Assembly (NCBI RefSeq): GCF_000715075.1
Contig: NC_134082.1
Span: 58,739,466 to 58,803,465 of the forward strand
Direction of reading: 5' to 3'
Source of the DNA: Nicotiana tabacum
Taxonomy: Eukaryota; Streptophyta; Magnoliopsida; Solanales; Solanaceae
DNA length: 64,000 nt
The notes under the pieces are model-generated. The model saw nothing but the letters and a program-made list of their open reading frames with translations, was not told where the DNA came from and ran no database searches. The translations under genes and the position numbers were made by a program. This document shows positions 8,372-63,020 of the stretch, piece by piece; within the stretch, counting starts at the first letter, position 1; every line of letters starts with the position of its first letter.

Positions 8372-8430
8372 TCGAACCCTATGTAGGTTGCTTACGTATC
8401 ATGACGCCACATGAATCAGACCAAGCGTAG
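8372..8430 (-). other. Boundary hairpin block, copy F
   Basis: On the minus strand: CTACG, TCTGATTC, then the stem TCATG / CATGA (plus 8399-8403 and 8410-8414, five perfect pairs), then GATACGTAAGCA and a GGTTCGATC tail. It matches the family found in the complete Ogre-like element but with a different stem sequence. It lies about 410 bases upstream of the gag start. Confidence 0.7.
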
Positions 8431-9720: not shown

Positions 9721-9790
9721 AGACCGGAACCTATGTGGGTTGCCTACGTATCACGCCCCGAAAGGCGAGAATCAGATATGCGTAGTTCGG
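9721..9790 (-). other. Boundary hairpin block, copy G
   Basis: On the minus strand: CGAACTACG, TCTGATTC, a stem whose core is CGCC / GGCG (plus 9754-9757 and 9764-9767) with two more outer pairs around one mismatch, then GATACGTAGGCA and GGTTCCGGTC. Same family as copy F and those at 44830, 44953, 47168, 54914 and 58272. Confidence 0.7.
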
Positions 9791-20027: not shown

Positions 20028-20031
20028 AACT

Positions 20032-27811: not shown

Positions 27812-27842
27812 ATAGATCCGCTATCGGTTCGATATCTTGGCC

Positions 27843-39574: not shown

Positions 39575-42500
39575 TGTGAGCACGTGATTGTTACTTTCAC
39601 GACAATTACTCCAAAAGAAATCAAAAAATAAAACAAATTGTCTTTGTGTATAATCTTTAGAATCTGCGTGGCATTTCGGATAGTTATTTGTAGTTTTGTC
39701 TGTGATTGTTTATTTTTAATTAAAAATACAAAAAAATATGTTGCATGAATTTAGGATTTTATTCTGCTATTAGGAATTAATTAAATCATATTTGGAATGA
39801 AAATCACAAAAAATATTATTTTTGGTAATTTTGTCATTTTTATTGTTTAATGGTGTGATTTTGTTTAATTAATATTTGATATCGTGTGTTAATTATTGCT
39901 AAGAATCAATTAATGTCTGTGTAATATAATTGTTGTTTTATAATTTATTTTTAGGATTTTGGTAAATTCGGAATTAAAAAGGAAAAGAACAAAAATAGAA
40001 AAGAAAATTGGACTGGGCCATTTCATTTTTGGGCCAAAATCAGGCCCAAACGAGCCCTATACCCGGTCCAAACCTTCAGCTCTCAAAGACGCATCAGATG
40101 ACGTCGTTTCGAGACCAACGAATCTCGACCATTCATCCATCCTCATTCAACGGTCCAAGACCTCACCCCATAACCCGACCCGTTTTCCCTGGATCGACCC
40201 AGTCCCCCACTGAGACCAAAACGACTCTGTTTTATATAAGTAAAGTGATCCAAACCATTGATCTCATCAGATCTAACGGCTTGGATTCACTCACCCATCA
40301 CATATATATATTTTAAACACACCCCACACCCCCTAAGCTACCCCCTCTCTCTTCGTTTCTCTCAACAAACCAGACGACCCCAAGAACCCTAGCCAGCCGC
40401 CACCCCTCCCCTTCGCCTGAAACCCGGCGGCGGCAACGCCGGTGACCACCAAAATGACACCCCTGAGCCATCTCCCCATCCACAACACGAATCCATGAAC
40501 CATTTGCCTCGAATCACCCCACATCTTCTCGAATCTTCAATCGAAGTTTCGAGCTGACCATGAAACCACCCCAATCCACCCCTAATTAACACCACACCAC
40601 CACTAGGCTTCCCTCATCCCTAAACCATCAACAGATTCCCTCGAATCTCGTTGGATCTCCTCGAATCTTCGATCAAAGATCTCCCCTCCAAGCCCTAGCC
40701 TGTCCCCTTGACCCCAGACTAACACCCAATAATCCCCTTTACCTCCTCGTCCTTAATCCCTAACCAAATTGGCTCGAACATGAGTAAAAACCGTCGAATG
40801 ACGGATCTAGGGTTTCAACGGTTCAAGACGTGTCAAAGCTTCAGGGTCGATTGGTTTCTATTCAATATTGTAGGCCTATTTCTCACGAAATAGACGTATA
40901 ATACTGACTAGGACTCAAGTTCGAAAGGGCATACTGTTGAAATCCGAGAAAAGAACAGTAAGTTCTTCATAATTTCTTTTGTTTCCTTCTATAGTTTTGT
41001 TTGTCTGTTTTAAATTGTATCTTTGTTTTGATTTGTTTCTTGTCATTTGTTCAGTACTTCTCTCCTTCTTATCAGACCGTTTATTGGGTCCAAGTTCTCT
41101 AATTGTTGGTTATATGTTGTAAACTGTTTGGTCAATTTATTGATTAGTTCGTTATGTGTGAGTTCGTTTAACCTGATAGTAGTTTTAATCCTGGCCTTGA
41201 TTTCATAGTCCATTTCAGTAGGTTTCATTTGTTGTTTTGTTTAAATGATGTATGTTAGACTTTCTGGCATTGGTTCAGGTTTGTCCCATATATGTGATGT
41301 GTGGCTCTTTGTTCTTTGATATTCATCAATCTTCGTTAAGTTCAGTATATCGCAGGATTTCCTTCACTCTATTTAGCTTAATTTGGAATTATGAATTAAT
41401 CATTCCCATAATGTGCCACTGGTGATTGGAAGTTTGACCTGGATAGTTCAATAGGTTTGTGTTCTGATTCATGGTAATGCTGTTAATGGGTCTTCTGTTA
41501 AGTATCAATGAATTTTGATTTCAGCTTTAGCTTAAGCTTCAATGTTCTGCTAAGCTCCTTTGTTTGTTGATGTGATTTTGGTTTGAAGTTCAGTCCAGAT
41601 TAAGGAAGTTGAATTAGTTATAGCTGCAGTTTTAATGTAGATTTCAGAGTTTAGTTTGGGGATTTGAAAACCTAAAAAAGGGGTTTAGAGTGAGTGGAGT
41701 GCCAGTTGAGTATGTAGTGAATCATTAAATTAATGAATAATTTAATCAAAAGAGGGAATCTTAGTGCAAATACATCCTGGCTGGCATCTTTAAAGGTGGG
41801 AAGTCAGATGTAGGATGACTTAAAATAATAAAAGCTGAGAATGCACATGGAAATAGGTAGTGAAACCTGTTGTACAGTAGGATATGCATTACTTTTTTGA
41901 ACTTCAGGAGATTTTTAAATAAGAAAACCCATGCCTAGACAACAAAAGGTGGAAAGGACAAATTAGGAAATATACTTTAAGTCTGGGCAGCCTGTTTATT
42001 TTGAAGGAGGAGGGCTATAAAATCAAACGAGAGGAAGAAGGAGGGGGGACTGGAAAAATTGAAAAGGGAAAAAGTTCATATTGAGAGAAATTTTTCAGGG
42101 GTCAAAAACACAAAGAATATTAGTGATTTTTAATCAGTCTGTGAGAGTTTGAAGTTTGGTCTTTGAATTCAAATTCAGGAATCAAACTCAAAAGGGTTTA
42201 TTCTTAGACATCTAAGAGTTCACTTTCAGTTTTTTTTGGGCCAGTGTATGAGAGGTTGCTGCTTGTTTTCAATTAGGGTCCATTGGTTGATGTTCAGTTG
42301 AGTTTGGGTTTATTTGAGTAGTGTTGTTCGATTTTCAAAACACTCCTGGTTTCTATATGTGTTTCTGGGTTCAAGCTTGACATAGTTTGGGGCTGTTGAG
42401 TTCAAATTGCTGCTATTAATCTTCCCTGCCTCGACTGACTCTTTTTCTTCATTGTAATCTCGAATCCAGGTACACTTTTGTCTCCAGTTGAACGTGGAAT

Positions 42501-44102
42501 CTTGTTTCAAGTGTATAAATGATCCAGAAAGTCAATGACAAGGAACTTTTGTTAATCTGAATCTATTGAGAATTGTTGTAGTTTTAATATTCCAATTAGA
42601 TTACTTATGTTGTCAAGAACTATATTGAGCTACTAGACTGATTTTGTTTGTTTTTGGCTGATTTTGGGTTAAGTTAACGATTATCTTGGTTTAGTTCACA
42701 TTGATAGTGTAACGCATGATTTTAGTAGGCTCTTGGGTGTATTCGAATGAACTATATGAGACTGTATTTGGATCAAAAAATGGATTTTGAGTTAGCTAGA
42801 TCATGTGAATTATTGGATTGTTAAGTATTAGATCCTCTTTTGTAGTTCGCCATTAAACGATTGCATGTTTAGTAATAAATCAGAAGGCAGTTAGAACGGC
42901 GTGAAGTAATTGATTATGTTATCATACGTCAAGCCCAAGTTAAATATTAGACTAGTAAGTTTAGTTCGAGCTAGTATCAAACTAGTTAGCCTGTGCTGAG
43001 TAATCAATCTCCAGTAGGAATAAATAAATACACATCATTATTCCATGCGTTCAATTATCAAGTGCATATTGCAATAGCGTGAAATAACTGAGCATGCCGT
43101 CATTTTTTTAAAATTTGAAATTTGTTTGGTAAGAATCAAGGATCAGTAGCTAATTAAAAGTCTTGAAGTGGGCCTATTAAATACCTTTCTCGTTTGGGCA
43201 AATTTTAAGGCCCGCGCTCGAACAGTCTTCGTTAATGGACCGTTGTTTCAATTCATATTCTTCGGGCTTACTTTTGAGCCCAATGACACGTTTATTTTAA
43301 AACTATTGCTTGGCCTGTATTAGACCTAAAACATTTTAATTAGGATATTTTCTTTTTAGAGACAAAACAAAAAAAATAAATAAAAAATCATAGTTTGCTT
43401 TTAGGCTTGCCCTTTTAAAAATAAAATGAGTCGAGCCTCGCCCAATAAAACGCACAAACTGCGGGGTCCTCATAAATGTATATATTAAAAATACTTAGAA
43501 TACGGGATGACCCATCTAGCGAACTTCACGGCTTTCCCCAAAGATAATAACGCGTTAGACTCTTTAGGCGCGATTTTAATTAAATTACATTCTTAAATTC
43601 GGGTGCGCATTTATGTGACCCAAATCCAAATCTCAACGGAGTCGGAATGTATTAACAACCACGGGTGCATTGATTGCGACGTGGTTCGAGATGCATTTTC
43701 ACGACGTTGCAATTCTATTAAAAAATAATAATAAAAGCAGTTTAAACTTAATAAAAGCACACAAGTTATAACATGTATTAAAATCAGATATTTAGCCATT
43801 ATAGCAATTTAAGCGACCGTGCTAGAACCACGGGATCCGTGGGTGCCTAACACCTTCCCTCGGGTCAACAAAATTCCTTACTTAGAATTTCTTGTTCGCA
43901 GACTTCATTTGGAAAGTCAAAAATTTCCTCGATTTGGGATTCAAGATAAACCGGTGACTTGGGACACCAAAAGCCAAACCTTTCCCAAGTGGCGACTCTG
44001 AAACAAATAAATAATCCCATTTTCGAATAATGTCACTTAAAATGGAAAAACTCCCTCACGCATTTATCCTTCGGGGTAGGTGTGTAAAAAGGAGGTGTGA
44101 CA
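39575..44102 (+). repeat. Ogre-like 5' LTR (4528 bp)
   Basis: A TATA box TTTATATAAG is at 40231-40240, followed by a GC-rich, C-rich first-transcribed part (40320-40480) and a long AT-rich remainder. It ends with the block carrying CCTAACACCTTC and GGAGGTGTGACA that is shared with the minus-strand element. Confidence 0.93.
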
Positions 44103-44124: not shown

Positions 44125-44829
44125 TCAGAATCCAGAACTTCGGTTCAGGGTTCAAGAATTCGAGCTTAGAATAACTGTTATAGTTGGCTTGTTTTATCTG
44201 ATTTTTACATGTTGAGCCTAATGTGCTAAATGCCGCTTTTACTGCTTTGATATTATTTGGACTGTATATAAATTGCTACGAAACCCTCCTCTCTCTGAGT
44301 CTTCTAAAACATCTGGGAAGTGTGCACTTCGTGTGACTTCTTTTATGTTAGAGTCTTATCCCAATTTTAGAACGAGGTTCGGACAAGTTGCAAAGCCGGT
44401 GAAGCTTCTGTATTCCTGGTACGTTGCCCCCCTCGGCTCGAGCTATCCGCTCGGGTAAGCCAGGTCTAGAACAATAAACCCAGTTTTTTAAACCTAGTAT
44501 AACAAGCCTCATACCGGATCCCTAGTAGGAACGTTTGTTTGCATCATGCGCATTTGACCTTGGAGACTCAACACAGGGGTTGGGTCTGTCTAGGACATGT
44601 GTACCCAAATGAAAAAGACCATCCTGATGCATCTTACGTGCTACTTGCGCATATGTTTGTTTCGGCTTGCATGTTGACCAGCTTTCTAGAACAGAGGAAG
44701 AAAATAAAAAAAAATAAAAATAAATAAATAAATAAATAATAATAATATAGGAGTGAGAGGTAGGTATTTAGAAAATTCCGAAATCTCCAAATGAGCCAAA
44801 TTTTTCAACTGCCATGTTCTGTCAAAACT

Positions 44830-44889
44830 GGCGAACTACGCGAGTCTGATTCTCACCAGGTGTGAGATACGTAGGCAAACCTCATCGGT
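44830..44889 (+). other. Boundary hairpin block, copy A
   Basis: GCGAACTACG, TCTGATTC, stem TCTCAC / GTGAGA (44851-44856, 44862-44867, six perfect pairs), then GATACGTAGGCA and CTCATCGGTT. Confidence 0.8.
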
Positions 44890-44952
44890 TTCTGCCGGAA
44901 TTCCGAAAAAAATAATAATACGTAGGCATGTTTCCCCTGTTACGTCAAAACG

Positions 44953-45012
44953 GGCGAACTATGCGGGTCTGATTCTCACCGGATGTGAGATACGTAGGCA
45001 AACCTCATCGGT
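44953..45012 (+). other. Boundary hairpin block, copy B
   Basis: GCGAACTATG, TCTGATTC, stem TCTCAC / GTGAGA (44974-44979, 44985-44990) with a changed loop, GATACGTAGGCA and CTCATCGGTTCCGG. A half copy (ATACGTAGGCA) lies between A and B at 44918-44928. Confidence 0.8.
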
Positions 45013-45557
45013 TCCGGTCCACCATTTTCAAAAACATCCAAAAATATTTTCCTTTACTTCCTTCTTTAGAAAAGTCTTTCTTTAAGACCCCAATTTAAAA
45101 AAAATCCAAAAATATTTTTTTATTAATTTCTTCTCAAAATTCAAAAATATTTTCATTCTTCTTTCAAAATTGGAAAGAAAATTCAAAATTCAAAAATATG
45201 TCATTTTTAGAAGCATTTCTTTCATTAAGAAGGGTCCAACTTCGTTTTTTTGTAAAAGTAGCCCAAAAGAACAATTTTTTTTTATTGTAAATAAGAAGGT
45301 GATGTCATTCTTGTCTAAAATAGTTGAATGTCCCCAAAAGGACGTTGGAAGGCCGTTTTTGCAAGAACAGTCATTTTTAGTAGTCATTTTTTTTTGGGTT
45401 TTTGGCCGTTTAGCAAACACAGTCTTAAAATCTTCTTCCCCGAAGTGCTGAAAGGTCGCATTTGCAAAGCCGGACTTTTATGAAATTTTGATAACCTTTT
45501 CTTGAGTCCAAATGAGTCATAACCTTTTAAATTAAATCACCCTAATAAATGTGCAGG

Positions 45558-47173
45558 ATGAGCACAGATGAAAACGAACCCTTTGCAGCTCTTGAGGAGA
45601 TCCCCTTACAGCTCCACATGTGGTGGAATGACCTAGGGAAAGGTAGCCGAGGAACTGTGATAAAAGTTTTGGGTGGTCGTGACGGACTTTTTAACATCAA
45701 GCCAAGATTGGACGTGATTGAAGCCCTGATACCTTTTTGGGATCCGACTCTCAATGTGTTTCGCTTTTCTGATTTTGAGCTCACACCCACACTAGAGGAA
45801 CTTGCGGGTTACGCCGGCCTTAGCGGAAACCTTAGAAGTCGGTACCCGATATCACCGAGACCAGTATCTCCTCACAAGTTTCTGGATATGTTAAGTATTA
45901 GCCGGGATATTCAAGATGGGAATTTATCTGGAGGGTTTTGCACTTTCCAGTTCCTGTACCAATGCTATGGCAATCCCCAAGGTTTCGAAGCACCGAATAC
46001 TGGTCTGACCCATGCCGGAAATAAAGATAAATAGGAGGCAAGGCGGGGTTTGGTTTTTATAGTAGCATTCTTGGTGTTGTAATATGTCCGCAGAAAGACG
46101 ACAACATAGAATTGGGCCTCGTGGGAATGGTGGATGTCGCAATCAAGAAAGCTAATGGCACATTAGTTCCCCTGATCTTATCTGAGATTTACCGAGCTTT
46201 GACCATCTGTTGAAAAGGGGGAAAATTCTTCCAAGGCTGCAACTTACTATTACAACTGTGGATACTGGAACATTTCTGCCACCATGTCGGGTATATGAAC
46301 TACGGCATGACCGGTTTGGATTGCATCGAAGAATTTGAAAGCCGAGTGGCGGGGGTTAAATTTCCAGAGGGTACCGAAGCTTGGTTTGCCCACTTGAGTT
46401 CTTTAACTTCAGATAAAATTTAGTGGACGTTTGGATGGCTCCCTGCCACCGAAGTCATATACATGTCAGCTAAAGTGTGCTACTTTCTCCTAATGGGCAT
46501 CCGGAGCATTCAGCCATATGCTCCTCATAGGGTTTTGCGCCAACTAGGAAGATTTCAAACCGTCCCCCATGACGAAGATTTGAGTATACATGTTGTCGAA
46601 TTGGGCCCAAAGGCTGTATTTCCAGAAGGAAGAGTTCGCCAAGTTTGGAATGAGTGCAGATTTCTCGAACCCAAGACTATGGTACGGGATCTAGCTAGAG
46701 GTGAGGTGGACCCCAATTATATGGTTTTGTTTGGCAAAAGATTTCAAATTCCTCGAGAGACCGAGAGACCTTCTAAGAGACCTCATGTCCAACAATTCAC
46801 TAATGACTCACAGGAGCAGTGGGGCTGGTTGGCAAAGGAAGAAAGCTATTGGGCTAAGATAAGTAAATTAGAGGGACAAATCAGGGACCTCAAATTTGGC
46901 CACAGTATCCAAGCTGCCGCAGATGAAGGGGAAAAGAAAAAGCTAACTCAGGAGAACGAAGCTCTCAAAGCTCAAATCCATAAAATGAGAATAGCTGCTA
47001 GAAACCCGGAAAGAAGCCGGGCAGATGAAAGGCTTATAAGCGGTCTGAGAAGGAAAGTACTTGAGTGTCAAGATAACCTAGAAAAATCCGAGGCTAGTCT
47101 AGCAAAAGTACGAGCACAATTGGCAGAGAGGGATGTGAAAAAGAGAGCCAAAGAAAAACCTAGAATGATCTGA
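45558..47173 (+). pseudogene. Ogre-like ORF1 (extra ORF upstream of gag), broken
   Basis: A protein of unknown role found between the 5' LTR and gag in Ogre elements; similar plant proteins are, as I recall, grouped under a DUF (DUF7745-like) related to plant mobile domains. The start is the ATG at 45558 (MSTDENEPF). Visible blocks: LIPFWDPTLNVFRFSDFEL, TPTLEELAGYAGLSGN and PHKFLDMLSI (45558-46034); a decayed middle with stops and frameshifts (46035-46462) where IELGLVGMVDVAIKKANGTL and FFQGCNLLLQLWILEHF can still be read; then an open C-terminal part (46463-47173) with a predicted coiled coil (KLEGQIRDLKFG to AQLAERD) and a basic end. The stop TGA (47171-47173) lies inside hairpin block C. 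Confidence 0.8.
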
Positions 47174-47220
47174 TTCATGCGGCGTCGTGATACGTAGGCA
47201 ATCCTCATCGGATCCGGTCA
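47168..47220 (+). other. Boundary hairpin block, copy C
   Basis: TCTGATTC, stem TCATG / CGTGA (47175-47179, 47186-47190, five pairs including one G-T), GATACGTAGGCA, CTCATCGGATCCGGTCA. The TGA of TCTGATTC is the ORF1 stop codon. A 33-base copy of the ORF1 end (GAGAGGGATGTGAAAAAGAG...) is repeated just after, at 47246-47280. Confidence 0.8.
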
Positions 47221-47623
47221 CGTTTTTGTAAATAACTTCAAATAAGAGAGGGATGTGAAAAAGAGAGCCAAAGAAAAACCAAAAGAAAAATGAAAAAAAT
47301 GGGGGCAAGGAAAGAGTGGAAAGAAAAGAGTGGAAAATGGGAATAAAAGGAGAAGTACAAAAGCCAAAAGTGAAAGAAAAAAAAAAGAAAATTGGGAATA
47401 TAAGCAGAGCCGGGATGAAACATGCAGCCGTTGCGAAACATGTAGAAACACATTTAACTGTATAGGAGCATCACACCCCAATGTGCGATTTCCTATGTGT
47501 TAATTGCTTCAAACTAACTGGTTTGTTGTCTACTTTTCGCCAGAGTTCCTATAGTAAGGTGGTTGGTTATGTGGTAGTCTGGCTTCACATTCATACTTCA
47601 CAAGGTCAAAAGGAAGTGTTGAA
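47221..47623 (+). other. ORF1-gag spacer
   Basis: Purine-rich (47280-47400, mostly A and G) and then ordinary sequence up to the gag ATG. No gene. Confidence 0.6.
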
Positions 47624-49241
47624 ATGTCTTCGAAAATTCCTCTGCCAACAGTTCCTATTCCAGAGGATAGTCTGATCTCGGCCATCCAAACTTCTAAGTG
47701 AGCAACGACTGAGGAAAATAGAATTCTGCGTCTCCGCATGATGGAAATGTGGGACGCCTGGGCCAATGGAAAAGAACCGCCAAGTGCGATCCCTGGATTC
47801 CCTGAGCTTTTTCCCAGGGCAAGTGGGACCTCCAACATCCCCATAAGTTATCCAAATACCCCACTGGGATATCCTACCATTTCAGCCCACTTTGCTGGAA
47901 CACCTTCTGAGTCTCGCCCCCAGGTGTTAGCTTCAAGTGTGGCTTCAAACATATTCACCGCGCCACCTTGTTCAGCTACGGCACAACCTGTTTTACCCAG
48001 GCTTAACTTTGATTCATCTTCCTTCACATTTCAAGAACCATCTTTCCAAGTGGAACCTCCTCAGTTTCCTACTTATACTTACCCTCAACCACCCCAATTT
48101 GAATTCACTACAGGGCAAGAAGAGATTGTGAGGAAGATGAGGAGTATGGAACAGAGTCTCAAAAGCATATAAGGCTTGAGTGGACAGAAGAGTGTATCAT
48201 ATGCCGACTTATGCATGTTACCTCATGTGCACCTACCATTGGGATTCAAAACCCCAAAATTTGAGAAGTACGATGGGCATGGTGATCCTATTACTCATCT
48301 CAAGAGATATTGCAATCAGCTGCGAGGAGCCGGTGGAAAGGAAGAACTACTCATGGCCTATTTCGGAGAAAGTCTGGTTGGCATCGCATCTGAGTGGTAC
48401 ATGGACCAGGATATATCCCGCTGGTACATCTGGGATGATCTTGCTAGAGATTTCGTCAGGCAGTTTCAGTACAACATTGATATTGCTCCAGATAGGAACT
48501 CATTGACAAACTTGAAAAAGAAATCCTCAGAAAGCTTCCGAGAGTACGTAGTTAAATGGCGTGAGAAGGCATCCAGGGTAAAGCCTCCGATGGATGAGGT
48601 TGAAATGGTCACAGTTTTCCTTCAAGCTTAGGAAGCTGACTACTTCCAGAATATAATGTCCGCAATAGGTAAACCGTTCGCTGAAGCTATCAAGATTGGC
48701 GAAATGGTTGAAAATGGGCTAAAAACGGGTCGACTTCTAAGCAATACGCTATCAGAGCTACCTCCCAAGCCATTCAGGGTGGGTCTAGAGGAATAGCAAA
48801 GGGAAAGAAAAGGGAATAAACATTCATGGCAGTGTCGGGTGCAAGGAGAAACTGTACCCCCAGATCCCTTTTCTTAGAAAGGACCCCGCAACACTATTAC
48901 CCTCACCAAGATTTGGCCTATACTCCTCAGCCATACTCAGTCATGAATGCTCAGCCTTATGTCCGGCCACAACAACAAGCCAACAGAAATCAAGCTTCAT
49001 TTCCTAGAAACCAACCTCCTTACCAAACCCACTACAACCCCCGTCCTCCACAAAATAATTTCCACCCTCAAGAACCGCCCAAGAGGCCAAATTTCACACT
49101 AATTGGCGAAACCTACTCCAGCCTGTTCCTCAAACCAGACAAAACCCAGCATCACCCGCTTATAGAGTCGGTGCTCGATGCGCTTATCACTCAGGGGCAG
49201 AAGGGCATGACATAGATGATTGCTGGACTCTAAAGAGAGCC
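47624..49241 (+). pseudogene. Ogre-like gag, broken
   Basis: Capsid protein. The start at ATG 47624 gives MSSKIPLPTVPIPEDSLI. In-frame stops at 47699, 48170 and 48629, and another at about 48794, interrupt a frame otherwise kept to about 48800. Blocks: a Pro-rich N-terminal region; EEIVRKMRSMEQSLKSI; the gag core GFKTPKFEKYDGHGDPITHL, SLVGIASEWYMDQDISRW, DDLARDFVRQFQYNIDIAPD and FREYVVKWREKASRV; then, after a frame change, a Gln/Pro/Tyr-rich tail (48826-49160) and a zinc-knuckle-like HSGAEGHDIDDCWTLKRAVE at about 49190-49245. The 48629 stop stands where relatives have Gln (FLQA-Q-EADYF). Confidence 0.88.
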
Positions 49242-50478
49242 GTGGAGAATTTGATAGAACAAAGAAAGATAGTGCTAAGGGATGAAGATGTTCCCAATGT
49301 GACCAACAACCCACTGCCAGCCCATAACAACGAGCCGGTAATTGGAATGATTTGTAAGGATAAGGAGTTTGACCCAGCATTGAAGGCCATCATTGCCATT
49401 GCTGACAAAGAAAAGAAACCAAAAGTTGCCTCGAAGCAAGATAAAGGGGAGAAAAAGAAAGAAACCACCCTTCCAAAGTCAGAGAAGAAAATTGAAGTTA
49501 AGACCGGGGCAACGCCTCCCAAAGATGTTGTTCTCTACATCCCTCAAGGCCGTAAAGAAAAACAGATGACGTTGAGTCCTCCCAAGAGATTCGAGCTGAA
49601 CAAAACAACCCAGATGTATGTACCCAAGGGGGTTTATGTGATGCGGGGGCCAATTAAGCCATCGAGGCTGAATGAGCCCGTGGTTATTGGACGCGCGCCA
49701 CAGAAGCCCATGAAAGATCCTACTGCCGTGCCCTGGAACTACAACAAAATAGTGGTGACCTATAAGGGCAAAGAAATCCCAGGAGAAGTTCAAGAAAATA
49801 ACCCTGTTGAAAAGTATTCCAATTTGGAAGAGGTGAACAACGCTACTATAAAGCGCTTCCCACTTAAGAAGCCCGTGAGTTCCGAAGAAGCGGAGGCTTT
49901 CTTCCAAAACATGAAAATGGAAGATTATGAGGTGATTGACCAGCTTTGAAAATTTCCCGAACAAGTCTCCTTGTTGGCTTTGTTGATGAATTCCGCCGAA
50001 CATCAGAAGGTATTGATCAAGACCTTTAACGAAGCATATGTGCATGTTGACATTTCTATAGAGCAGTTGGAGAGAATGGCAGAAAGATTTTTCGCAATCA
50101 ATCAGATCACTTTTAGCAAAAATGATTTACCCTCAGAAGGGGTCGCACATAACAAAGCCTTGCACCTAACAGTCAAATGCAAAGGGCACTACGTGAAAAA
50201 GGTGATGTTGGACGGAGGCTCTAGAGTAGACATTTGCCCACTTTCAACTCTACAGCGCATGGAAATTGGGACCAAAATAATCCGACCCAACAATGTCTGT
50301 GTACGTGCCTTCGATGGCATCAAAAGGGACACGATTGGAGAGATCGATCTAATTCTGACCATCGGCCCAGTAGACTTTGAAGTAACCTTCCAGGTTCTAG
50401 ACATGGACACATCCTACAACTTTCTTTTGGGGAGCCATGGATTCATGCAGCGGGGGATGTACCCTCTACTCTTCATCA
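49242..50478 (+). pseudogene. Ogre-like gag-pol linker and aspartic protease, broken
   Basis: The protease cuts the polyprotein. A Lys-rich linker (49242-49949) ends in a TGA (49947-49949, where CGA/Arg is likely), and the same frame goes on to the protease: VMLDGGSRVDICPLSTLQRM near 50205-50265, where DGGS is the active-site loop, and VLDMDTSYNFLLG near 50395. A one-base loss at about 50437 shifts the frame, after which HQMVKFE-type sequence continues in the next entry. Confidence 0.87.
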
Positions 50479-50479
50479 G

Positions 50480-51111
50480 ATGGTGAAGTTCGAGCATAAA
50501 GACCAAGAGATCGTGGTCCACGGAGAAGATGAGCAATCAATTTATCGGGACCCATCAGTCCCATGTCTTGAAGCAAGAGAGGGGAGTGAGCACATAGTTT
50601 ATCAGGCTTTTGAAATTGTGGTTGCAGACCAGTACAAAGAAGGAAAACCTTGCCCCCAACCTTTCCTTTCTAATGCATCAATCATGGTGGCCAAAGAAAT
50701 GATCCGACATGGCTTCAAACTGGGGAAGGGACTTGGGAAATCATTGCAAGGGATAGTTGAACTTATCACCCTGCCCACCATTGAAAAGTCCTTCGGGGTA
50801 GGCTTCCGACCCACTCCAGCTGATATAAGATGGGCAAATGATAGAAAGAATGATGGTTGGGTTTTGCCTCAGCCGATTCCGCATCTTTACAGAACATTTG
50901 TCAAGCCAAAATGCCAGAAGAAAGAAGAAGATGAGGCCTTTACTGCCGAAGAGATTGAATAGATCTGTGGGGCAATAAGGAAGATACTATATGAAACCCA
51001 CATGGTCCAGTCAGGGGAGGGCTCAAGCACCGCTGAGGTGCTATATATGGGACCCAATGCCAAGCTGCAGAATTGGAAAACTGTGCCATTCCCAATCAGG
51101 CGGGAGTCCCG
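50480..51111 (+). pseudogene. Ogre-like G-patch region between protease and RT
   Basis: A G-patch (Gly-rich RNA-binding) segment typical of this branch: MIRHGFKLGKGLGKSLQGIV near 50699-50758, followed by FGVGFRPTPADIRWANDRK. A TAG at 50960-50962 breaks it; beyond the stop the frame still reads ILYETHMVQSGEGSSTAEV and IRRES up to the candidate splice donor. Confidence 0.8.
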
Positions 51112-51310
51112 GTAGACCTGTCCTACCACTTTTTCTGCATCACGAGTTATTTTAGGGTTAACTCGGATGTTTTTTCTTTTAGTTTCTTGTCTTTAAATAC
51201 TAATGTGAACCCTGTTATCTTCAAAATTCAATGAAATAAAATTAATATTTCATCGTTCATCTCTTTTCATTCTTTCTGATTTTGTTACTTTTTCTTATTT
51301 CTTTCTTCAG
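51112..51310 (+). other. Candidate spliced intron of the Ogre-like pol
   Basis: Donor G|GTAGAC at 51112 and acceptor CTTCAG at 51310 behind a long pyrimidine tract. The 199 bases between are full of stops in all frames and less GC-rich than the flanks. A spliced intron between protease and RT is an established Ogre trait; these exact sites are inferred. Confidence 0.6.
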
Positions 51311-53554
51311 TTCTAATAATGCGGCTTTAAATAACATGACATGCTTTCGGACTTCATACCCAGATCCAAACACGCTGTCTAATTACGAAATAATGAACCA
51401 AGAACCAGAATATGATGAAGAAGAGGCTATTAAGGAAATAAATCGAGAATTGAAACAATTTGAGAATAAACCTAAGCCAAACTTAAATGAAACCAAGCCA
51501 GTTAATTTGGGTAGCTCTGAAGAAGTCAAAGAAACCAAGATAAGCATTCATACAGATGAAAGAACCAGGGACGCATTGATCCAACTTTTGTTTGAATTCA
51601 AAGATGTGTTTGCTTGGTCATACGATGACATGCCAGGATTAAGTGTCGATTTAGTGGTCCATAAGTTGCCAACCTACCCCGATTATTCCCCTATCCAGCA
51701 AAAACAGAGGAAGTTCAAAATTGATATCAGTGACAAGATTAAAGAAGAGGTCACAAAACAGTTAAAGGTGGGAGTGATCCGAGTGGTCCGATACACCACA
51801 TGGCTGGCTAATATAGTTCTTGTGCCAAAGAAAGATGGTAAAATCCGGGTGTGCGTTGACTACCGAGATCTTAACAAAGCAAGCCCCAAGGACAATTTCC
51901 CTTTGCCAAACATCCACATCCTTGTTGATAACTGCGCCAAACATGAAATACAATCTTTTGTGGATTGTTACACAGGATACCACCAGGTGTTGATGGATGA
52001 AGAAGATGCAGAAAAGACAGCTTTTACCACACCTTAAGGCACTTACTGTTATAGAGTCATGCCATTTGGTCTGAAGAATGTCGGGGCAACCTACATGAGG
52101 GACATGACTGCCATTTTTCATGATATGATGCACCAAGAGATTGAGGTGTATGTGGACGATGTAATCATCAAATCCAAAACCCAGGACGACCACGTTCGGG
52201 ACTTGAGAAAATTCTTTGGGCGGCTGGGCAAATATGATTTGAAGCTGAACCCAGCCAAATGTGCATTTGGAGTACTATCCGGCAAACTCTTGGGATTCAT
52301 AGTCAGTTGGAGGGGCATCGAGTTAGATCCAACAAAGATAAAGTCTATTCGGGATTTGCCCCCTCCAAGAACCAAGAAAGATGTTATAAGTTTTTTGGGA
52401 AGATTGAATTACATCAGTCGTTTCATCGCTCAGTTGACCTCCACGTGTGAACCCATATTTAAGTTGTTAAAGAAAGATGCGGCAATCAAATGGACAGTTG
52501 AATGTCAAGAAGCTTTTGATAAAATCAAGGAATATCTGTCAAATCCGCCAGTCTTGGTCCCACCTGAGCCAGGAGGCCTCTGTTCTTGTACCTGACCGTC
52601 TTGGAAAATTCTTTTGGTTGTGTCCTCGGGCAACATGACGTGACCGGAAAGAAGGAGCATGTCATTTACTATCTGAGCAAGAAGTTTACTAGTTATGAAG
52701 CCAAGTACACTTTATTGGAAAGAACTTGCTATGCTTTGACATGGGTCGCTCAGAAGCTGAGGCATTATTTGCAAGCTTACACCACCTACCTCATAACCAG
52801 GTTGGATCCTTTAAAGTATATATTTCAGAAACCAATGCCCACTGGGAGATTAGCAAAGTGGCAGATCTTGCTCACGGAGTTTGACATAGTCTATGTCACT
52901 CGCACGACAATGAAAACCCAGGCGTTAGCGGATCATTTGGCTAAGAACCCGATTGATGATGAGTACCAACCTTTGAGAACTTACTTCCCAGATGAAGAAG
53001 TAAATTCAGTTGAGGCAATATCTGAAGACAATCATGCTTGGAAAATGTTCTTTGATGGGGCGGTAAACACAAAGGGTGTTGGAATTGGGGCAATTTTGAT
53101 CTCACCCACTGGTCAGCACTATCCAGCCATAGCTCAGCTTTGTTTCTTTTGTACAAACAACACTGCCGAGTATGAAGCCTGCATTATGGGTATAAACATG
53201 GCAATAGACCAAAATGTCGAAGAGTTGTTGATCATGGGAGACTCAGATCTGATTATCCGGCAAGCCCAAGGAGAATGGGAAACCCGAGATGTTAAGCTTA
53301 TCCCTTACAAGAAGCATGTGGAAGACCTCAGCAAGCGATTTAAGTCAATAGAGTTCAGGTACATTCCTCGTTGTCACAACGAATTAGCCGACGCACTTGC
53401 TACTTTGGCCTCAATGTTGCCGTATCCAGGCAATGCTCACGTAGATCCCTTGGAAATTCAAATTCGGGAAAGCCAAGGTTATTGTAATACAATTGAAGCA
53501 GCACCAAATACCCAACCATGGTACCATGACATCAAAAAGTTTCTGAAAACTTAA
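51311..53554 (+). pseudogene. Ogre-like RT and two RNase H domains, broken
   Basis: RT blocks: IRVCVDYRDLNKASPKDNFP near 51845, MPFGLKNVGATY near 52060, and the catalytic YVDD at 52149-52160. A TAA at 52035-52037 stands where relatives have Trp. A frame change near 52590 leads into the connection RNase H (FGCVLGQHDVTGKKEHVIYY, AKYTLLERTCYALTW). The second, cellular-like RNase H (WKMFFDGAVNTKGVG near 53040, NNTAEYEACIMGINMA near 53158, IPRCHNELADALATLAS near 53363) is the added domain that marks Tat/Ogre elements; its Asp, Glu and Asp residues are visible. The frame ends at a TAA (53552-53554). Confidence 0.9.
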
Positions 53555-54765
53555 GAATACCCCGAGCAAGCCAGTGGAGACCAAAAGAGAACCATTAGGC
53601 GGCACGCGAGTGGTTTCTTTTTGAGTGGGGATGTCTTATACAAGAGAACTCCGAACCTCAATTTGTTAAGATATGTTGACGCAGAGAGGCTGGAAGAATC
53701 ATGCATGAGGTACACGCGGGAGTATGCGGGCCCCACATAAACGGGTACGTTTTAGCAAAGAAAATCCTTCGAGCGGGTTATTACTGGATGACCATGGAAA
53801 AGGATTGTTTTAGTTTCGTTCGGAAGTGTCATCAGTGTCAGGTGCACGGTGATTTGATTCATGCACCTCCCACAGAACTGCATCCCATGCCTGCACCTTG
53901 GCCATTTGTTGCCTGGGGCATGGACGTCATTGGGTCAATCGAGCCAAAAGCCTCAAATGGACACAGATTCATACTAGTTGCCATTGACTACTTTACAAAA
54001 TGGGTTGAAGCAATCACTCTCAAGTATGTCACCAAGAAAGTTGTGGTAGATTTCGTGCACTCCAATCTTATCTGCCGTTTTGGCATTCCTGCAACTATTA
54101 TCACAGATAATGCTGCAAACTTGAATAGTCATTTGATGGGGGAGATATGCGAACAATTCAAGATAACGCATTAGAATTCTACTCCCTATCGCCCTAAAGC
54201 CAATGGTGCCGTTGAAGCAAAAAATAAGAACATCAAAAGGATTTTGAGAAAGATGATTCAAAGTTCCAGGCAGTGGCATGAAAAGTTGTCGTTTGCATTC
54301 TTGGGATATCGCACTACTGTGCGCACATCAATTGGAGACACCCCGTATCTTTTGGTTTATGGCACGGAAGCTATAATACCCGCCGAGGTCGAAATCCCCT
54401 CTCTCCGAATCATTGTTGAAGCCGAAATTGAAGACAGTGAGTGGGTTAAAACCCGTCTGGAACAATTAACCTTGATCGATGAAAAGCGAATGGCTGCGGT
54501 CTGCCACGGGCAGTTGTACCAACAAAGAATGGCTCGTGCCTATAACAAGAAAGTGCGACCTAGAAATTTTGAAGTGGGGCAACTCGTTTTAAGGCGTATT
54601 CTTCCCCATCACCAGGAAGCAAAAGGAAAATTCGCTCCTAATTGGAAGGGCCCATACGTCATCAGAAAGATATTGCCGAGAGGAGCATTGTATCTGGGCG
54701 ATATCGAAGGAAATGATCCTGAAGCAGCTGTAAATGCGGATGCAGTCAAAAGGTACTATGTTTAG
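53555..54765 (+). pseudogene. Ogre-like integrase, broken
   Basis: Inserts the DNA copy into the genome. Zinc-binding HHCC site: HAGVCGPHINGYVLA (53707 on) and CHQCQVHGD (53830). Catalytic core: WGMDVIGSI (Asp), ITDNAANLN (Asp) and VEAKNKNIKRILRKM (Glu). C-terminal part: YGTEAIIPAEVEIPS, NFEVGQLVLRRI, KGPYVIRKILP, ending ADAVKRYYV and TAG at 54763-54765. Defects are a one-base frameshift near 53700 and a TAG at 54172-54174 between the second Asp and the Glu. Confidence 0.9.
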
Positions 54766-54913
54766 TCTTTCTGTAACAACAACATTGTCCGATTGGGAAG
54801 ATGAAGGCTTTTATTCTCGCTACCCAAACACTATCTACCCTTTGCAAACCCATTTGTGCCGGTTACTCTTTGAAAGTGTTGAAAAAAAAAAGAGAAAGAA
54901 GAAGATGTTTTCC

Positions 54914-54975
54914 TGAACTACGTTCGACTTGATTCCGAAAGGATACGTAGGCAGTCTCTCTATGGGGTTCAGTCA
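54914..54975 (+). other. Boundary hairpin block, copy D
   Basis: TGAACTACG, TTGATTC, a short stem TCC / GGA closed by a GAAA loop (54934-54943), GATACGTAGGCA, then GGGGTTCAGTCA. It begins 149 bases after the integrase stop codon. Confidence 0.7.
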
Positions 54976-55193
54976 CACCAAAATAAAAATCCAAATTCCC
55001 TCAAAAATGAAACTGGGGCAAATGTTGTAATGGTCCTGCGATAATCCCGCTTGAATGGTTCCAAAGTTGTCATTCGATCCAAATCATTTTTACCCAAATC
55101 CTTTCAAGTCTTTCCGATCAATCAGTGAGAATGTTCAAGTATCAGAGGATACAGCTACTTGGATCCGATGCAATAAAGTGAGAGAAATAAAAT

Positions 55194-55375
55194 GAGAGAG
55201 TCTTATTGGTGAAAACCCACACGGGCACCATAAGGCGACGGTGAGCAGAAAAATTGAAAATGAGAGAGCCTGTTTAGTGAAAACTCGTAAAGAGTGCTAT
55301 CAGGCGACGGTGAGAAGAGAAATGAGAGAGGTCGATTGGCGAAAACCCGCAAAGGGCGCCGTCGATCGAAAAGAA
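55194..55375 (+). repeat. Three related hairpins with an AAAA bulge
   Basis: Each unit runs GAGAGAG, about ten bases, arm, AAAA, inner arm, loop, inner arm, arm; the first two then have AGGCGACGGTGAG. Unit 1: TGGTG-AAAA-CCC-ACAC-GGG-CACCA (55207-55230). Unit 2: TAGTG-AAAA-CTC-GTAAA-GAG-TGCTA (55275-55299). Unit 3: TGGCG-AAAA-CCC-GCAAA-GGG-CGCCG (55337-55361). Pairing is kept in all three although both arms change. Confidence 0.75.
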
Positions 55376-56250
55376 GACACCCCCCACCAATGAAAGAGTC
55401 CTGGCCAGGTTTCTCGATTTAGAGATATGGTTCACAGTGAGTTAGATAGTTGTGCATATCGGGTATCCAGTCCAAGAAGTATGTCATGTCTATTGAAGTC
55501 TGCATGCACCCCAGATAAGTCCTTCTTTCCCCCAAAAGGGACGCTTCTCCTTAAATTCATTTTTCTTATCCTTTCTTTACTTTTCCTTGAATCCCTTTCG
55601 GTCTAACTCTATTCCGAAACTAATACGAAGAAAAAGTGGCAAGATTGGTTTTACAGGGTTTTGTTTAATAAAGCCAAGTCCAAAGAAAAGTACCCAGCCT
55701 CAGTGGGTGCATCAAGTCGATCCCAACTGGCCATGATAGCCGATGCTCTGAAATCAGAGTTATTGAAAATGAAAAGAAATCCAAAGTCAAAAGCCCGTAG
55801 AAGCAGATTAAAATGAAAGGGTCAAAGCCTTATACGGTTGAGCCGTCATGATAAATTTTGAAAAGTTGAGTTCCTCGATTTTAGGAGAGAGAGACCAATC
55901 TTTAATAAAATCCAGCAAGTGGAAGAGGTTCTCGCCAAAAGAGTTGGGCCGAGATCAAGTGATCAAAAACAATGAAGGCCACAAAACCGACCACCATTTC
56001 AAACTAACAATTGTTCTTTGTTTGAAAATTGAAACAGGTGCAATCCAAAGAAACAGTGAAAGAAACAGGTGTAACCAAAATGGAAAAAGAAATGTGCAAG
56101 CGCTAGAAATAGCTTAGCAACAATAATCAACCCAAAGGGAAGTCTCCTCCAAATTCTTTCCTGCATTTGTTTTTACTAAAAAATGAATTGAAAGAAAATA
56201 GATAAGAAGAAAAAAAAAGGTAGTTTAGAAGCCCCAAAATCAAACTTTTA

Positions 56251-57700
56251 CCTTTTTACCAACATTAGGCCTCTTATCCCTGAGTTGAGATTTTAGACAT
56301 AGGGCCTCCATTCCCTAGTCGCCTTTTACCAACATTAGGGCTCCAATCCCTGAGTTGAACCTTTTTAGACATAGGGCCTCCATTCCCTAGTTGCCTTTAC
56401 CAATAATAGGGCTCCAGTCCCTAAGTTGAGATTTTTAGACATAGAGCCTTCATTCTCTAGTCGCCTTTTACCAACATTAGGGCTCCAATCCCTGAGTTGA
56501 ACCTTTTTAGACATAGGTCCTCCATTCCCTAGTCACATTTCGCCAACATTAGGGCTCCAATCTCTGAGTTGAGCGATTTTCCTTTAGCCGACATTAGGGC
56601 TTCAATCCCTGAGTTTGAGCGTTTCCTTTACCCGACATTAGGGCTCTAATCCCTGAGTTGAGCGATTTTTCCTTAGCCGACATTAGGGCTCCAATCCCTG
56701 AGTTGAGCGTTTCCTTAGCCGACATTAGGGCTCCAATCCCTGAGTTGAGCGATTTTTCCTTAGCCAACATTAGGGCTCCAATCCCTGAGTTGAGCGATTT
56801 TTCCTTAGCCGACATTAGGGCTCCAATCCCTGAGTTGAGCGTTTCCTTAGCCGACATTAGGGCTCCAATCCCTGAGTTGAGCGATTTTTCCTTAGCCGAT
56901 ATTAGGGCTCCAATCCCTGAGTTGAGCGTTTCCTTGGCCGACATTAGGACTTCAATCCCTGAGTTGAGCGTTTCCTTTACCCGACATTAAGGCTCCAATC
57001 CCTGAGTTGAGCATTTCCTTAGTCGACATTAGGGCTCCAATCCCTGCGTTGAGCGATTTTTCCTTAGCTGACATTAGAGCTCCAATCCCTGAGTTGAGCA
57101 TTTCCTTAGCCGACATTAGGGCTCCAATCCATGAGTTGAGCATTTCCTTTAGCCGACATTAGGGCTCCAATACCTGAGTTGAGCGATTTTTCCTTAGCCG
57201 ACATTAGAGCTCCAATCCCTGAGTTGAGCGTTTCCTTAGCCGACATTAGGGCTCTAATCCCTGAGTTGAGCATTTCCTTTACCCGACATTAGGGCTCCAA
57301 TCCCTGAGTTGAGAGTTTCCTTAGCCGACATTAGGGCTCCAATCCCTAAGTTGAGCGTTTCCTTAGCTGACATTAGGGCTCCAATCCCTGAGTTGAGCGT
57401 TTCCTTAGCCGACATTAGGGCTCCAATCCCTGAGTTGAGCGTTTCCTTTACCCGACATTAGGGCTCCAATCCCTGAGTTGAGCGTTTCCTTAGCCGACAT
57501 TAGGGCTCCAATCCCTGAGTTGAGCGATTTTTTCCTTAGCCGACATTAGGGCTCCAATCCCTGAGTTGAGCATTTCCTTGGCCGATATTAGGGCTCCAAT
57601 CCCTGAGTTGAGCATTTCCTTTAGCCAACATTAGGGCTCCAATCCCTGAGTTGAGCGAGTTTCCTTTAGCCAACATTAGGGCTCCAATCAATGAGTTGCG
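56251..57700. repeat. Minisatellite in the Ogre-like 3' region, about 42-45 bp units
   Basis: Around 30 head-to-tail copies of a unit with the words CCGACATTAGGGCTCC and AATCCCTGAGTTGAGCG, joined by TTTCC or ATTTTTCC, giving mainly 42- and 45-base units. The first ~300 bases are a longer variant that adds TTTTTAGACATAGGG-CCTCCATTCCCTAG. Tandem arrays before the 3' LTR are known in Ogre elements. Long frames on both strands across the array come from unit lengths divisible by three and are not genes. Confidence 0.95.
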
Positions 57701-58443
57701 CCTTTTAGACTTGGGGTTACCAATCCCCTCATCAATTCCGCAGATTTTTATGGCAAATAACTCACGAAATTTTCCTAGTGAAACTGGGGCAGAAAAATTT
57801 CGTTCGTTTGTTTGTTTTGTTGTCTGAGCAGGTTTTACCTCGAGGCACAGGGATCGAGATGACCTATAGAATGAGCCTCCATCCAGAATAAGGAAAAGAA
57901 TAAAAGAACAAAAAAAAAGATGAGCTCCAATACCAGAGCAAACAAAGGTGCGGATAGCCTGAAATTTGATTGAAGTCATGAGCTCCGCCAATCCCGTTTC
58001 GCTCAATGCTTGCAAAAATGAACAAGCGCCCACCACTTGCGAGCATCAAGATTCAGATCAAAGTCTACAAGCAAGATCAGCTAAGACTCAAGATCAAGTT
58101 TAGAAAGAATTATGGATAGGGATCTTGTACCTCATGGTTGATAAGCATAACTAACTTAGTTTTATTTTTCCTTTGGTATAATAAGGAGGTCGGTAAAGCA
58201 GTAGTAACAGCATGCAGCAGCAGTAACAGCAAAGTTGCAGTCCCATGGTAGTCCCAGCTACCAAAACTTCCCGAACTACATTGACCTGATTCCTGTTTAG
58301 CCCAGGATATGTAGGAAACCTTCGAAGCAAAGGTTCGGTCAAATATTTCAAAAAAATGCTTCACACGGAGTACTCGAACGGGCAAAAATTGCTCGTATTC
58401 GCTCACTTTATCTTTGCACGAAAACCCTGCATGTTTTCGAACA
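57701..58443 (+). other. Ogre-like 3' region, distal part
   Basis: Non-coding. It contains a polypurine-like word GAAACTGGGGCAG (about 57780) and hairpin block E shortly before the true polypurine tract. Confidence 0.6.
58272..58340 (+). other. Boundary hairpin block, copy E
   Basis: CGAACTACA, CCTGATTC, stem TCCTG / CAGGA (58291-58295, 58303-58307, five perfect pairs), GATATGTAGGAA, then AGGTTCGGTCAA. It lies about 100 bases before the polypurine tract. Confidence 0.75.
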
Positions 58444-58455: not shown

Positions 58456-61400
58456 TGTGAGCACGTGATTTTTGCTCTCACAACAATTACTCCAAAAGAA
58501 ATCAAAAAATAAAACAAATTGTCTTTTTGTATAATCTTTAGAATCTGCGTGGCATTTCGGATAGTTATTTGTAGTTTTGTCTGTGATTGTTTATTTTTAA
58601 TTAAAAATCCAAAAAAATATGTTGCATGAATTTAGGATTTTATTCTGCTATTAAGAATTAATTAAATCATATTTGGAATGAAAATCACAAAAAATATTAT
58701 TTTTGATAATTTTGTCATTTTTATTGTTTAATGGTGTGATTTTGTTTAATTAATATTTGATATTGTGTGTTAATTATTGCTAAGAATCAATTAATGTCTG
58801 TGTAATATAATTGTTGTTTTATAATTTATTTTTAGGATTTTGGTAAATTCGGAATTAAACTAGGAATTAAAAAGGAAAAGAACAAAAAATAGAAAAGAAA
58901 ATTGGACTGGGCCATTTCATTTTTGGGCCAAAATCAGGCCCAAACGAAACCTATACCCGGTCCAAACCTTCAGCTCTCAAAGACGCATCAGACGACGTCG
59001 TTTTGAGACCAGCGAATCTCGACCGTTCATCCATCCTCATCCAACGGTCCAAGATCTCACCCCATAACCCCACCCGTTTTCCCTGGATCGACCCAGTCCC
59101 CCACTGAGACCAAAACGACTCTGTTTTATATAAGTGAAGTGATGCAAACCGTTGATCTCATCAGATCTAATGGCTTGGATTCACTCACCCATCACATATA
59201 TATATATATTTTCAAACACACCCAACACCCCCTAAGCTACCCCCCTCTCTTCGTCTCTCTCAACAAACCAGACGACCCCAAGAACCCTAGCCAGTCGCCA
59301 CCCTTCCCTTTCGCCTGAAACCTGGCGGCGGCAACGCCGGTGACCACCAAAACGACACCCCTGAGCCATCTCCCCATCTACAACACGAATCCATGAACCA
59401 TTTGCCTCGAATCACCCCACATCTTCTCGAATCTTCAATCGAAGTTTCGAGCTGACCATGAAACCACCCCAATCCACCCCTAATTAACACAACACCACCA
59501 CTAGGCTTCCCTCATCCCTAAACCATCAACAGATTCCCTCGAATCTCGTTGGATCACCTCGAATCTTCAATCAAAGATCTCCCCTCCAAGCCCTAGCCTG
59601 TCCTTGACCCCAGACTAACACCCAATAATCCCCTTTACCTCCTCGTCCTTAATCCCTAACCAAATTGGCTCGAACATTAGTAAAAACCATCGAATGACGA
59701 GTCTAGGGTTTCAACGGTTCAAGACGTGTCAAAGCTTCAGGGTAGATTGGTTTCTATTCAGTATTGTAGGCCTATTTCTCACGAAATAGTCATATAATAC
59801 TGACTAGGACTCAAGTTCGAAAGGGCATACTGTTGAAATTCGAGAAAAGAACAGTAAGTTCTTTATAATTTCTTTTGTTTCCTTCTATAGTTTTGTTTGT
59901 CTATTTTAAATTGTATCTTTGTTTTGATTTGTTTCTTGTCATTTGTTCAGTACTTCTCTCCTTCTCATCAGACCGTTTATTGGGTCCAAGTTCTCTAATT
60001 GTTGGTTATATGCTGTAAACTGTTTGGTCACTTTATTGATTAATTCGTTATGTGTGAGTTAGTTTAACCTAATAGTAGTTTTAATCCTGGCCTTGATTTC
60101 ATAGTCCATTTCAGTAGGTTTCTTTTGTTTTTTTGTTTAATAATGTATGCTAGACTTTCTGGCATTGGTTCAGGTTTGTCCCATATATGTGATGTGTGGC
60201 TCTTTGTTCTTTGATATTCATCAATCTTCGTTAAGTTCCGTATATCGCAGGATTTCCTTCACTCTATTTAGCTTAATTTGGAATTATGAATTAATCATTC
60301 TCATAATGTGTCACTGGTGATTGGAAGTTTGACCTGGATAGTTCAATAGGTTTGTGTTCTGATTCATGGTAATGTTGTTATTGGGTCTTCTGTTAAGTAT
60401 CAATGAATTTTGATTTCAGCTTTAGCTTTAGCTTCAATGTTCTGCTAAGCTCCTTTGTTTGTTGATGTGATTTTGGTTAGAAGTTTAGTCCAGAATTTAG
60501 GAAGTTGAATTGGTTATAGCTGCAGTTTTAATGTAGATTTTAGAGTTTAGTTTGGGGATTTGAAAACCTAAAAATGGGGTTTAGAGTGAGTGGACTGCCA
60601 GTTGAGTATGTAGTGAATCATTAAATTAATGAATAATTTAATCAAAAGAGGGAATCTTAGTGCAAATACATCCTGGCTGACATCTTTAAAGGTGGGAAGT
60701 CAGATGTAGGATGACTTAAATAATAAAAGCTGAGAATGCACATGGAAATAGGTAGTGAAACCTGTTGTACAGTAGGATAGGCATTACTTTTTTGAACTTC
60801 AGGAGATTTTTAAATAAGAAAACCCATGCCTAGACAACAAAAGGTGGAAAGGACAGATTAGGAAATATACTTTAAGTCTGGGCAACCTGTTTATTTTGAA
60901 GGAGGAGGGCTATAAAATCAAACGAGAGGAAGAAGGAGGGGGGACTGGAAAAATTGAAAAGGGAAAAAGTTAAGATTGAGAGAAATTTTTCAGGGGTCAA
61001 AAACACAAAGAATATTAGTGATTTTTAATCAGTCTGTGAGAGTTTGAGTTTGAAGTTTGGTCTTTGAAGTCAAATTCAGGAATCAAACTCAAAAGGGTTT
61101 ATTCTTAGACATCTATGAGTTCACTTTCAGTTTTTTTTTGTGTCAGTGTATGAGAGGTTGCTGCTTGTTTTCAATTGGGGTCCATTGGTTTATGTTCAGT
61201 TGAGTTTGGGTTTATTTGAGTAGTGTTGTTCGATTTTCAAAACACTCCTGGTTTCTATATGTGTTTCTGGGTTCAAGCTTGACATAGTTTGGGGCTGTTG
61301 AGTTCAAATTGCTGCTATTAATCTTCCATGCCTCGACTGACTCTTTTTCTTCATTGTAATCTCGAATCCAGGTACACTTTTGTCTCCAGTTGAACGTGGA

Positions 61401-63015: not shown

Positions 63016-63020
63016 ATATC

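Follow-up and report, generated by a model that had tools for sequence, protein, structure and literature searches.

The 64-kb window of Nicotiana tabacum analyzed here (the whole stretch of contig NC_134082.1 presented above) harbors on its plus strand an Ogre-like retrotransposon with two long terminal repeats (LTRs) at 39575-63015, flanked by the target-site duplication ATATC (39570-39574 and 63016-63020), and on its minus strand a partial relative of this element, at about 6.5-11 kb. Both contain copies of a block of about 73 nt with two successive hairpins, which is considered below as a candidate RNA element. Seven copies occur in the window, five on the plus and two on the minus strand, and all of them were confirmed in the sequence at the places given in a preliminary description of this DNA.

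The two-hairpin block and its host elements

Helix A of the block is formed by variable arms between TGATTC and GATACGTAGG, pairing the stretch that follows TGAT with the one that precedes ATAYG, and helix B (AAYC/GRTT) directly follows GGCA. The letters around the hairpins (GAACTACG, CTGATTC, GATACGTAGGCA and CGRYC) are strongly conserved. The second, covarying hairpin after GGCA and a complementarity between CTACG and CGTAG are features absent from the preliminary description.

The plus-strand element holds the block at four positions, with one additional local copy. The leader copy HP1a (44828..44900, arms TCTCAC/GTGAGA) lies 726 nt past the LTR and is followed by HP1b (44951..45023); the two blocks previously placed before the open reading frame ORF1, at 44830 and 44953, are therefore both present, but the second is merely a local tandem duplicate of the first (79 nt, 90% identical). 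The pre-gag copy HP2 (47152..47223, arms TCATG/CGTGA) is without the upstream GAACTACG and overlaps the ORF1 stop codon. This overlap, correctly described for the block at 47168, is not general: in ten relatives that have ORF1, a gap of 634-749 nt separates the end of the ORF1 match from the block, and because these relatives keep that interval, the overlap appears peculiar to the window copy, where the interval seems to have been lost. A 35-nt direct repeat (47126-47160 and 47246-47280) flanks HP2 at the end of ORF1, beside the interval missing here. The post-integrase copy HP3 (54910..54978, TCC-GAAA-GGA) lies 148 nt past the integrase-side frame. Finally, HP4 (58268..58344; arms TCCTG/CAGGA, outer CTACA/TGTAG, hairpin B AACCTT/AAGGTT) starts 188 nt before the 3' LTR and does not lie at the 3' polypurine tract (PPT) itself, just before which it had been placed.

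In the minus-strand relative, the LTR end and leader share 75% identity with their counterparts in the plus-strand element over 861 columns. Its HP1 (9718..9793) lies about 870 nt past its LTR end and its HP2 at 8366..8438, with a gag-like frame, read by eye, downstream of the latter. No ORF1 was recognized, by eye only, between the two blocks (8438-9718), both of which are kept.

A covariance model built from the seven copies recovered these seven at 57-78 bits (E <= 2e-17) and found no other site in the window with an E-value below about 1, a search which, as the model was built from those same seven, shows only that there are no further copies. Besides, the window, the only sequence scanned with the families of Rfam 15, gave 0 matches at E <= 1 on both strands.

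The host element is bounded by a 5' LTR (39575..44102, plus strand, TGTGAG...TGACA, with ends read in the sequence) and a 3' LTR (58456..63015), each of about 4.5 kb, which aligned to each other with 96.1% identity over 4570 columns. The ORF1 region (45549..47173) comprises two open frames, 45549-46034 (DUF7745) and 46463-47173; DUF7745 scored above the cut-off in this region, and the plant mobile domain gave a weak match below it (E 0.00075). Domain search placed gag (Retrotrans_gag) at 48176..48631 and the frames of reverse transcriptase (RT), RNase H (RH), a second RNase H (RVT_3) and integrase (INT) at 51282..54765, all on the plus strand. The frame 52586-53554 holds PF17917 at 7-99 and PF13456 at 156-274, and the integrase frame adjoins it. 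According to PMC6317226, a second RNase H located between RH and INT is common to the Ogre and Retand groups, and an extra ORF of plant-mobile-domain type occurs upstream of gag in 57% of Ogre elements. A tRNA-Arg primer-binding site and an intron separating PRO from RT are further features of Ogre elements. Ogre elements of the Tat clade are the likely hosts of the block. The plus-strand element has such an RVT_3-like domain between RH and integrase, and the predicted order of its domains agrees with that of the Ogre and Retand groups. The type of ORF1 and the long LTRs presumably make Ogre the likelier of the two.

Pairing and covariation of the hairpins

Copies were compared within one plant genome, that of the window. 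The alignment set of 99 copies was reduced to 82 by excluding copies whose context was shorter than 95 nt and merging identical ones, and six of the 82 rows could not be parsed and are absent from the tallies of outer pairs, helix B and pre-gag arms (76 rows). For helix A, 100 listed matches to the core pattern contained 45 distinct inner segments, 42 of them long enough for a test of the arms (three were excluded as too short). These 42 segments showed 21 distinct 3-nt arm combinations and 32 Watson-Crick pairs, compared to a mean of 7.8 and a maximum of 21 among shuffled arms; none of 10,000 shuffles reached 32, and this test is independent of model fitting. The earlier observation that the arms differ yet pair is borne out by these counts. 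Not all copies pair in simple register: adjacent to the constant TC/GA, 12 of the 100 listed matches lack a Watson-Crick pair, and six lack any pair even when G-U is counted. The pairless arm combinations all start with TCG, and at least part of them pair again past one mismatch (by eye). In the pre-gag class, the arms ATG/CAT, ACG/CGT and GTG/CAC occur together with the wobble intermediates ATG/CGT and GCG/CGT.

The alignment of 49 distinct copies, which was fitted to the covariance model, gave 65 doubly changed cells in helix A (shuffled mean 22.0; 0 of 500 shuffles as high) and a covariation score of 0.331 (shuffled mean 0.117, 0 of 500; slid versions 0.009-0.129). The seven window copies, whose alignment was not fitted, gave a score of 0.312 against 0.157 for shuffles, again with 0 of 500 reaching it. 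In helix B, the form A[AG]YC..GRYY fits 46 of 65 distinct 3' segments, and the variable pair in these 46 is C-G in 34, T-A in 11, T.G in one and C.A in none; a looser test yielded 3.91 pairs versus 3.40 when shuffled (0 of 300 reach). Within HP4 alone, helix B is ACCT/GGTT in 18 of 32 and ATCT/GATT in 8 of 32. As judged from these alignments, helices A and B both covary.

The outer complement CTACG/CGTAG is nearly invariant, and its sole double change, CTACA/TGTAG, occurs in 13 of 76 rows, in the HP4 position, and was counted as one event. A closing helix GAAC/GTTC has both strings in 29 of 76 parsed rows and competes with helix B. A pseudoknot between the loop and downstream letters was dropped, as it could be drawn by eye for some leader copies and not for those with the GAAA loop.

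The conserved letters also allow a reading in terms of RNA processing or splicing, with CTGAT as branch point and GTAG|GC as acceptor, or with a nuclease cut that yields subgenomic RNAs. What speaks for it is only a resemblance of motifs to the splicing consensus, together with the partial splicing of Ogre RNA elsewhere, as stated in PMC6317226. An acceptor needs neither covarying arms nor a second hairpin, and we consider this explanation distinctly improbable.

Conservation, positions and retention of the block

The conservation test used 46 hand-picked blocks of the 99 copies, with flanks of 74-80 nt. Median identity of the block was 0.78, 0.81, 0.81 and 0.85 for HP1 to HP4, respectively, compared to 0.34-0.71 for the flanks and 0.47-0.61 for shuffled flanks, and the block exceeded both flanks in 36/36, 105/105, 54/55 and 51/55 pairs; the contrast is weaker at the last two positions, where the downstream flank of HP3 (0.65) and the flanks of HP4 (0.68 and 0.71) are above background. 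Moreover, the nearest neighbor of each block was found in its own position class in 46 of 46 cases, and therefore the four position-specific versions look older than the sampled elements.

Among 30 consecutive hits, 25 lay within 1.5 kb of an element protein (tblastn) or LTR match, all on the same strand. With regard to the other five, L051 (in L078) and L054 (in L079) show gag or LTR matches in the 10-kb stretches that contain them, and L053, L058 and L069 each carry a further block in line. The map of 20 such stretches comprised matches to gag, ORF1b, RH, INT, INTc and LTR, with RT and protease pieces unlisted. HP1 lies 683-1071 nt past the LTR end (nine measured, ends approximate), HP2 464-586 nt upstream of the gagN match (six measured), HP3 29-393 nt past the integrase-side match (17 measured), in line with its earlier placement just after integrase, and HP4, in all 11 elements measured (among them that of the window), begins 178-189 nt upstream of the 3' LTR. 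Some of the ends used are approximate: the LTR match of L063 is 48 nt short, the LTR start of L080 is extrapolated from a partial match, and the minus-strand LTR end was taken as 10669 instead of 10665, the value read in the sequence. Of 20 ten-kb stretches, chosen without using HP4, 16 contained this copy downstream of HP3 and on the same strand. As far as these sequence matches tell, the sampled copies lie in Ogre-like elements, on the element's strand and at four recurring places.

The tight distance between HP4 and the 3' LTR, together with a primer-binding site (PBS) that is followed by HP1, could indicate a guiding function of the blocks in strand transfer or plus-strand priming during reverse transcription. 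Such a role is quite unlikely in our view, because HP2 and HP3 are distant from both the PBS and the 3' LTR, the spacing of HP1 from the LTR end is loose (0.68-1.07 kb), and a copy found behind a hAT transposase gene (see below) would have no reverse transcription to serve.

The genome assembly of the window comprises 3,996,098,646 bases (4.0 Gb) in 700 contigs. The core pattern CTGATTCN{4,30}GATACGTAGGCA has 31,432 exact matches in it (15,935 and 15,497 on the two strands), a number which refers to one exact form and leaves copies with other letters uncounted, and the reversed pattern has 0 + 0. In addition, the HP4 tail followed by 115-145 nt and the PPT/LTR start matched 8,053 times genome-wide, and its reversed pattern 0 times; total length was 150-158 in 93 of 100 listed matches, with an allowed range of 139-169.

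The block is also found in copies that have lost most or all recognizable genes. L079 contains HP1, HP2, HP3, HP4 and the start of the 3' LTR, and the comparison with 12 frames of the window element returned only a 27-residue gag remnant (E <= 0.01). L058 holds HP1-HP3 in its 3 kb, which end before HP4, and has no match to the 12 frames at E <= 0.01. Since L079 and L058 are 81.5% identical over 2,527 columns, they can be regarded as two members of one family without gag-pol. Furthermore, L077, L078, L090 and L093 have gag and keep HP3 and HP4, with no RNase H or integrase-core match listed. Retention of the block without genes would be the behavior expected of a cis-acting site.

It had been suggested that the blocks assist ribosome handling between cistrons, and HP1 and HP2, in the leader and upstream of gag, with 464-586 nt from HP2 to the gagN match in the six cases measured, would suit an element helping ribosomes to reach ORF1 or gag past very long leaders by internal entry, shunting or reinitiation. 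However, HP3 and HP4 are downstream of every ORF found and equally conserved, the family without gag-pol keeps its blocks, and the gap between HP2 and gag amounts to hundreds of nucleotides. Because two of the four positions are past all ORFs and the blocks persist in that family, ribosome handling is the least supported of the options offered in the preliminary description, and a translational role appears unlikely.

Candidate roles, known systems and other repeats of the window

A single copy was encountered outside Ogre-like elements. A scan of prokaryote genomes with TGATTCN{4,34}GATACGTAGGCA matched 43 stretches, and 42 of these were rejected as chance, having a model E of 0.31 or worse or being unlisted at E <= 10. 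The remaining one, L034 (L034:7834-7905, model E 2.6e-7), lies on a 9,923-bp contig assigned to a Bacilli bin, a bacterial bin from roe deer jejunum. Its block has GAACTACG, a seven-pair helix A and GATACGTAGGCAG, and its helix B is outside the common form; given that the 43 stretches were picked by the core pattern, only the outer letters and the helix give independent support for this copy. The block starts 47 nt past the stop codon of a hAT transposase gene and on the same strand; the gene encodes a 637-aa protein with hAT dimerization and RNase H-fold domains at the contig's other end (L095:254-2167, minus strand). The bacterial part of the contig, as read, appears to end in an SSB gene without its start, and on this account the contig is probably a chimera of bacterial DNA and plant DNA from the diet. 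In the genome of the window, 150 places scored for the hAT protein were just 29-36% identical. Viral contigs contained 0 stretches with the core pattern and five with another pattern, none of them found by the model at E <= 1, and no relative of the RT protein was found in them.

The copy beside the hAT gene, the tandem copy HP1b and extra leader copies in L061 and L066 might be taken to indicate an origin at the DNA level, in which non-coding slots were invaded by a tiny sequence, mobile or recombinogenic, that has no RNA function. The restriction to one strand and four fixed places, the position-specific versions (46/46) and the covarying arms speak against this origin, and we regard it as very improbable. 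The extra copies just mentioned (L061:2300-2372 and L066:2188-2260) are third leader blocks between HP1 and HP2, of the TTTGATTC form and with helix B ACCC/GGGT, and no ORF1 match is listed for the two elements.

There is, in our estimation, about an even chance that the block is a cis-acting RNA site for the handling of genomic RNA, whether in export, in stability or protection, or in packaging, which we treat as one group; translation, reverse transcription, processing and a DNA-level origin each seem less likely. The bases for this proposal are the covarying arms, the element strand, the four fixed places, the old position-specific versions and the retention in the family without gag-pol, and these observations and the contrast to the flanks likewise support the preliminary suggestion of a selected RNA element at module boundaries, possibly for packaging or other RNA handling. 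The checks that had been put forward for that suggestion, covariation and relation to ORF boundaries, were approximated in one plant genome without R-scape, and nothing in them contradicted it. The inner arms of the first hairpin would be free to vary provided that they pair, and with the second hairpin following, the two hairpins may present the conserved letters for binding by one protein. This protein could be encoded by the element itself, as Gag or the product of ORF1, or be an RNA-binding protein of the host. Several sites per RNA would then allow a multivalent complex by which the full-length RNA is singled out for export, protection or packaging, and non-autonomous copies mobilized by others would keep the block because it is needed in cis. 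As the hAT transposase has no Gag, the lone copy behind its gene is a hint of a host factor as the partner.

Several observations weigh against the proposed role in RNA handling. Two of five covariation measures fail to beat shuffles in the 49 copies: four doubly changed pairs were equaled in 81 of 500 shuffles and 14 further pair types in 105 of 500, and for the seven window copies the same two measures were matched by 42 and 428 of 500. Copies in one genome are kin, and shuffles overstate their independence. For helix B, 19 of 65 segments are outside the form, the hAT-side copy included. The outer pairing depends on one class-level double change, four rows have the mismatched CTACA/CGTAG, and deamination at the CTACG/CGTAG sites, both of them CpG steps, may account for part of the changes. 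An alternative YCUG-UAGG pairing, present in some predicted folds, competes with it. Single-sequence folding of the seven blocks was no better than that of shuffled sequences (z -1.57 to +0.54), and predicted folds of single copies often differ from the consensus fold. As for positions, HP4 was not found behind HP3 in four of the 20 stretches (L084, L086, L091 and L092), and non-coding stretches in deletion copies may persist through youth rather than selection.

A broader proposal is that the block is a plant RNA element which Tat/Ogre retrotransposons have in common with one or more hAT DNA transposons, recruiting a host factor that favors transposon RNA through export, stability or escape from silencing, and placed once per module boundary in Ogre-like elements. 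The link to hAT comes from one copy, and this combined reading is a doubtful one; were that copy typical, a host pathway used by unrelated transposons would be indicated.

Structured cis elements are a known kind already. The retroviral psi and constitutive transport element (CTE) are structured RNA sites needed in cis on the genomic RNA, kept by defective genomes and usually confined to one region. In contrast, the block described here, compared with them in sequence via Rfam only, has four spaced copies and one copy behind the gene of a DNA transposon. A packaging signal of the retroviral type binds Gag and is required for the entry of genomic RNA into particles, and the one observation on the block that bears on such a role is its retention in copies without genes. 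Non-coding motifs of Sireviruses (Ty1/copia) are alike in being old, conserved in a plant LTR lineage and, in one case, tied to the junction of PPT and 3' LTR, where inverted repeats border the PPT with the right arm inside the 3' LTR (PMC2829016). Unlike that repeat, HP4 is self-contained, with both arms in the block and 178-189 nt upstream of the LTR, and the block has sister copies at three other places. The Ogre paper (PMC6317226) covers domains, ORFs, PBS and intron, and the terms hairpin and untranslated occur 0 times in its main text. No published description of such a block in retrotransposons was found in the literature searched, where subscription journals, in which Ogre leader stretches may be noted, are poorly covered, and a string search with the conserved letters returned no retrotransposon paper by title. 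What would be new here is that a self-contained module of two hairpins recurs at the boundaries between the modules of one lineage, has no Rfam match in the window, is represented by more than 30,000 pattern matches in a single genome and occurs once, as a stray copy, behind a transposase. In some plant genomes, giant Ogre elements account for a large share of the DNA. A defined module with known positions and covarying arms offers a handle on them, given that the arms can be broken and re-paired and a binding protein can be pulled down.

Two further repeats were noted in the window. The direct-repeat pair 17524-20028 and 25301-27812 (93.7% identical over 2.5 kb) probably represents the LTRs of another element, and the covariance model found no block between them. 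Between HP3 and HP4 lies a long tandem array (56291-57702), largely composed of units of about 42-45 nt, which would fit the tandem repeats known from Ogre 3' regions.

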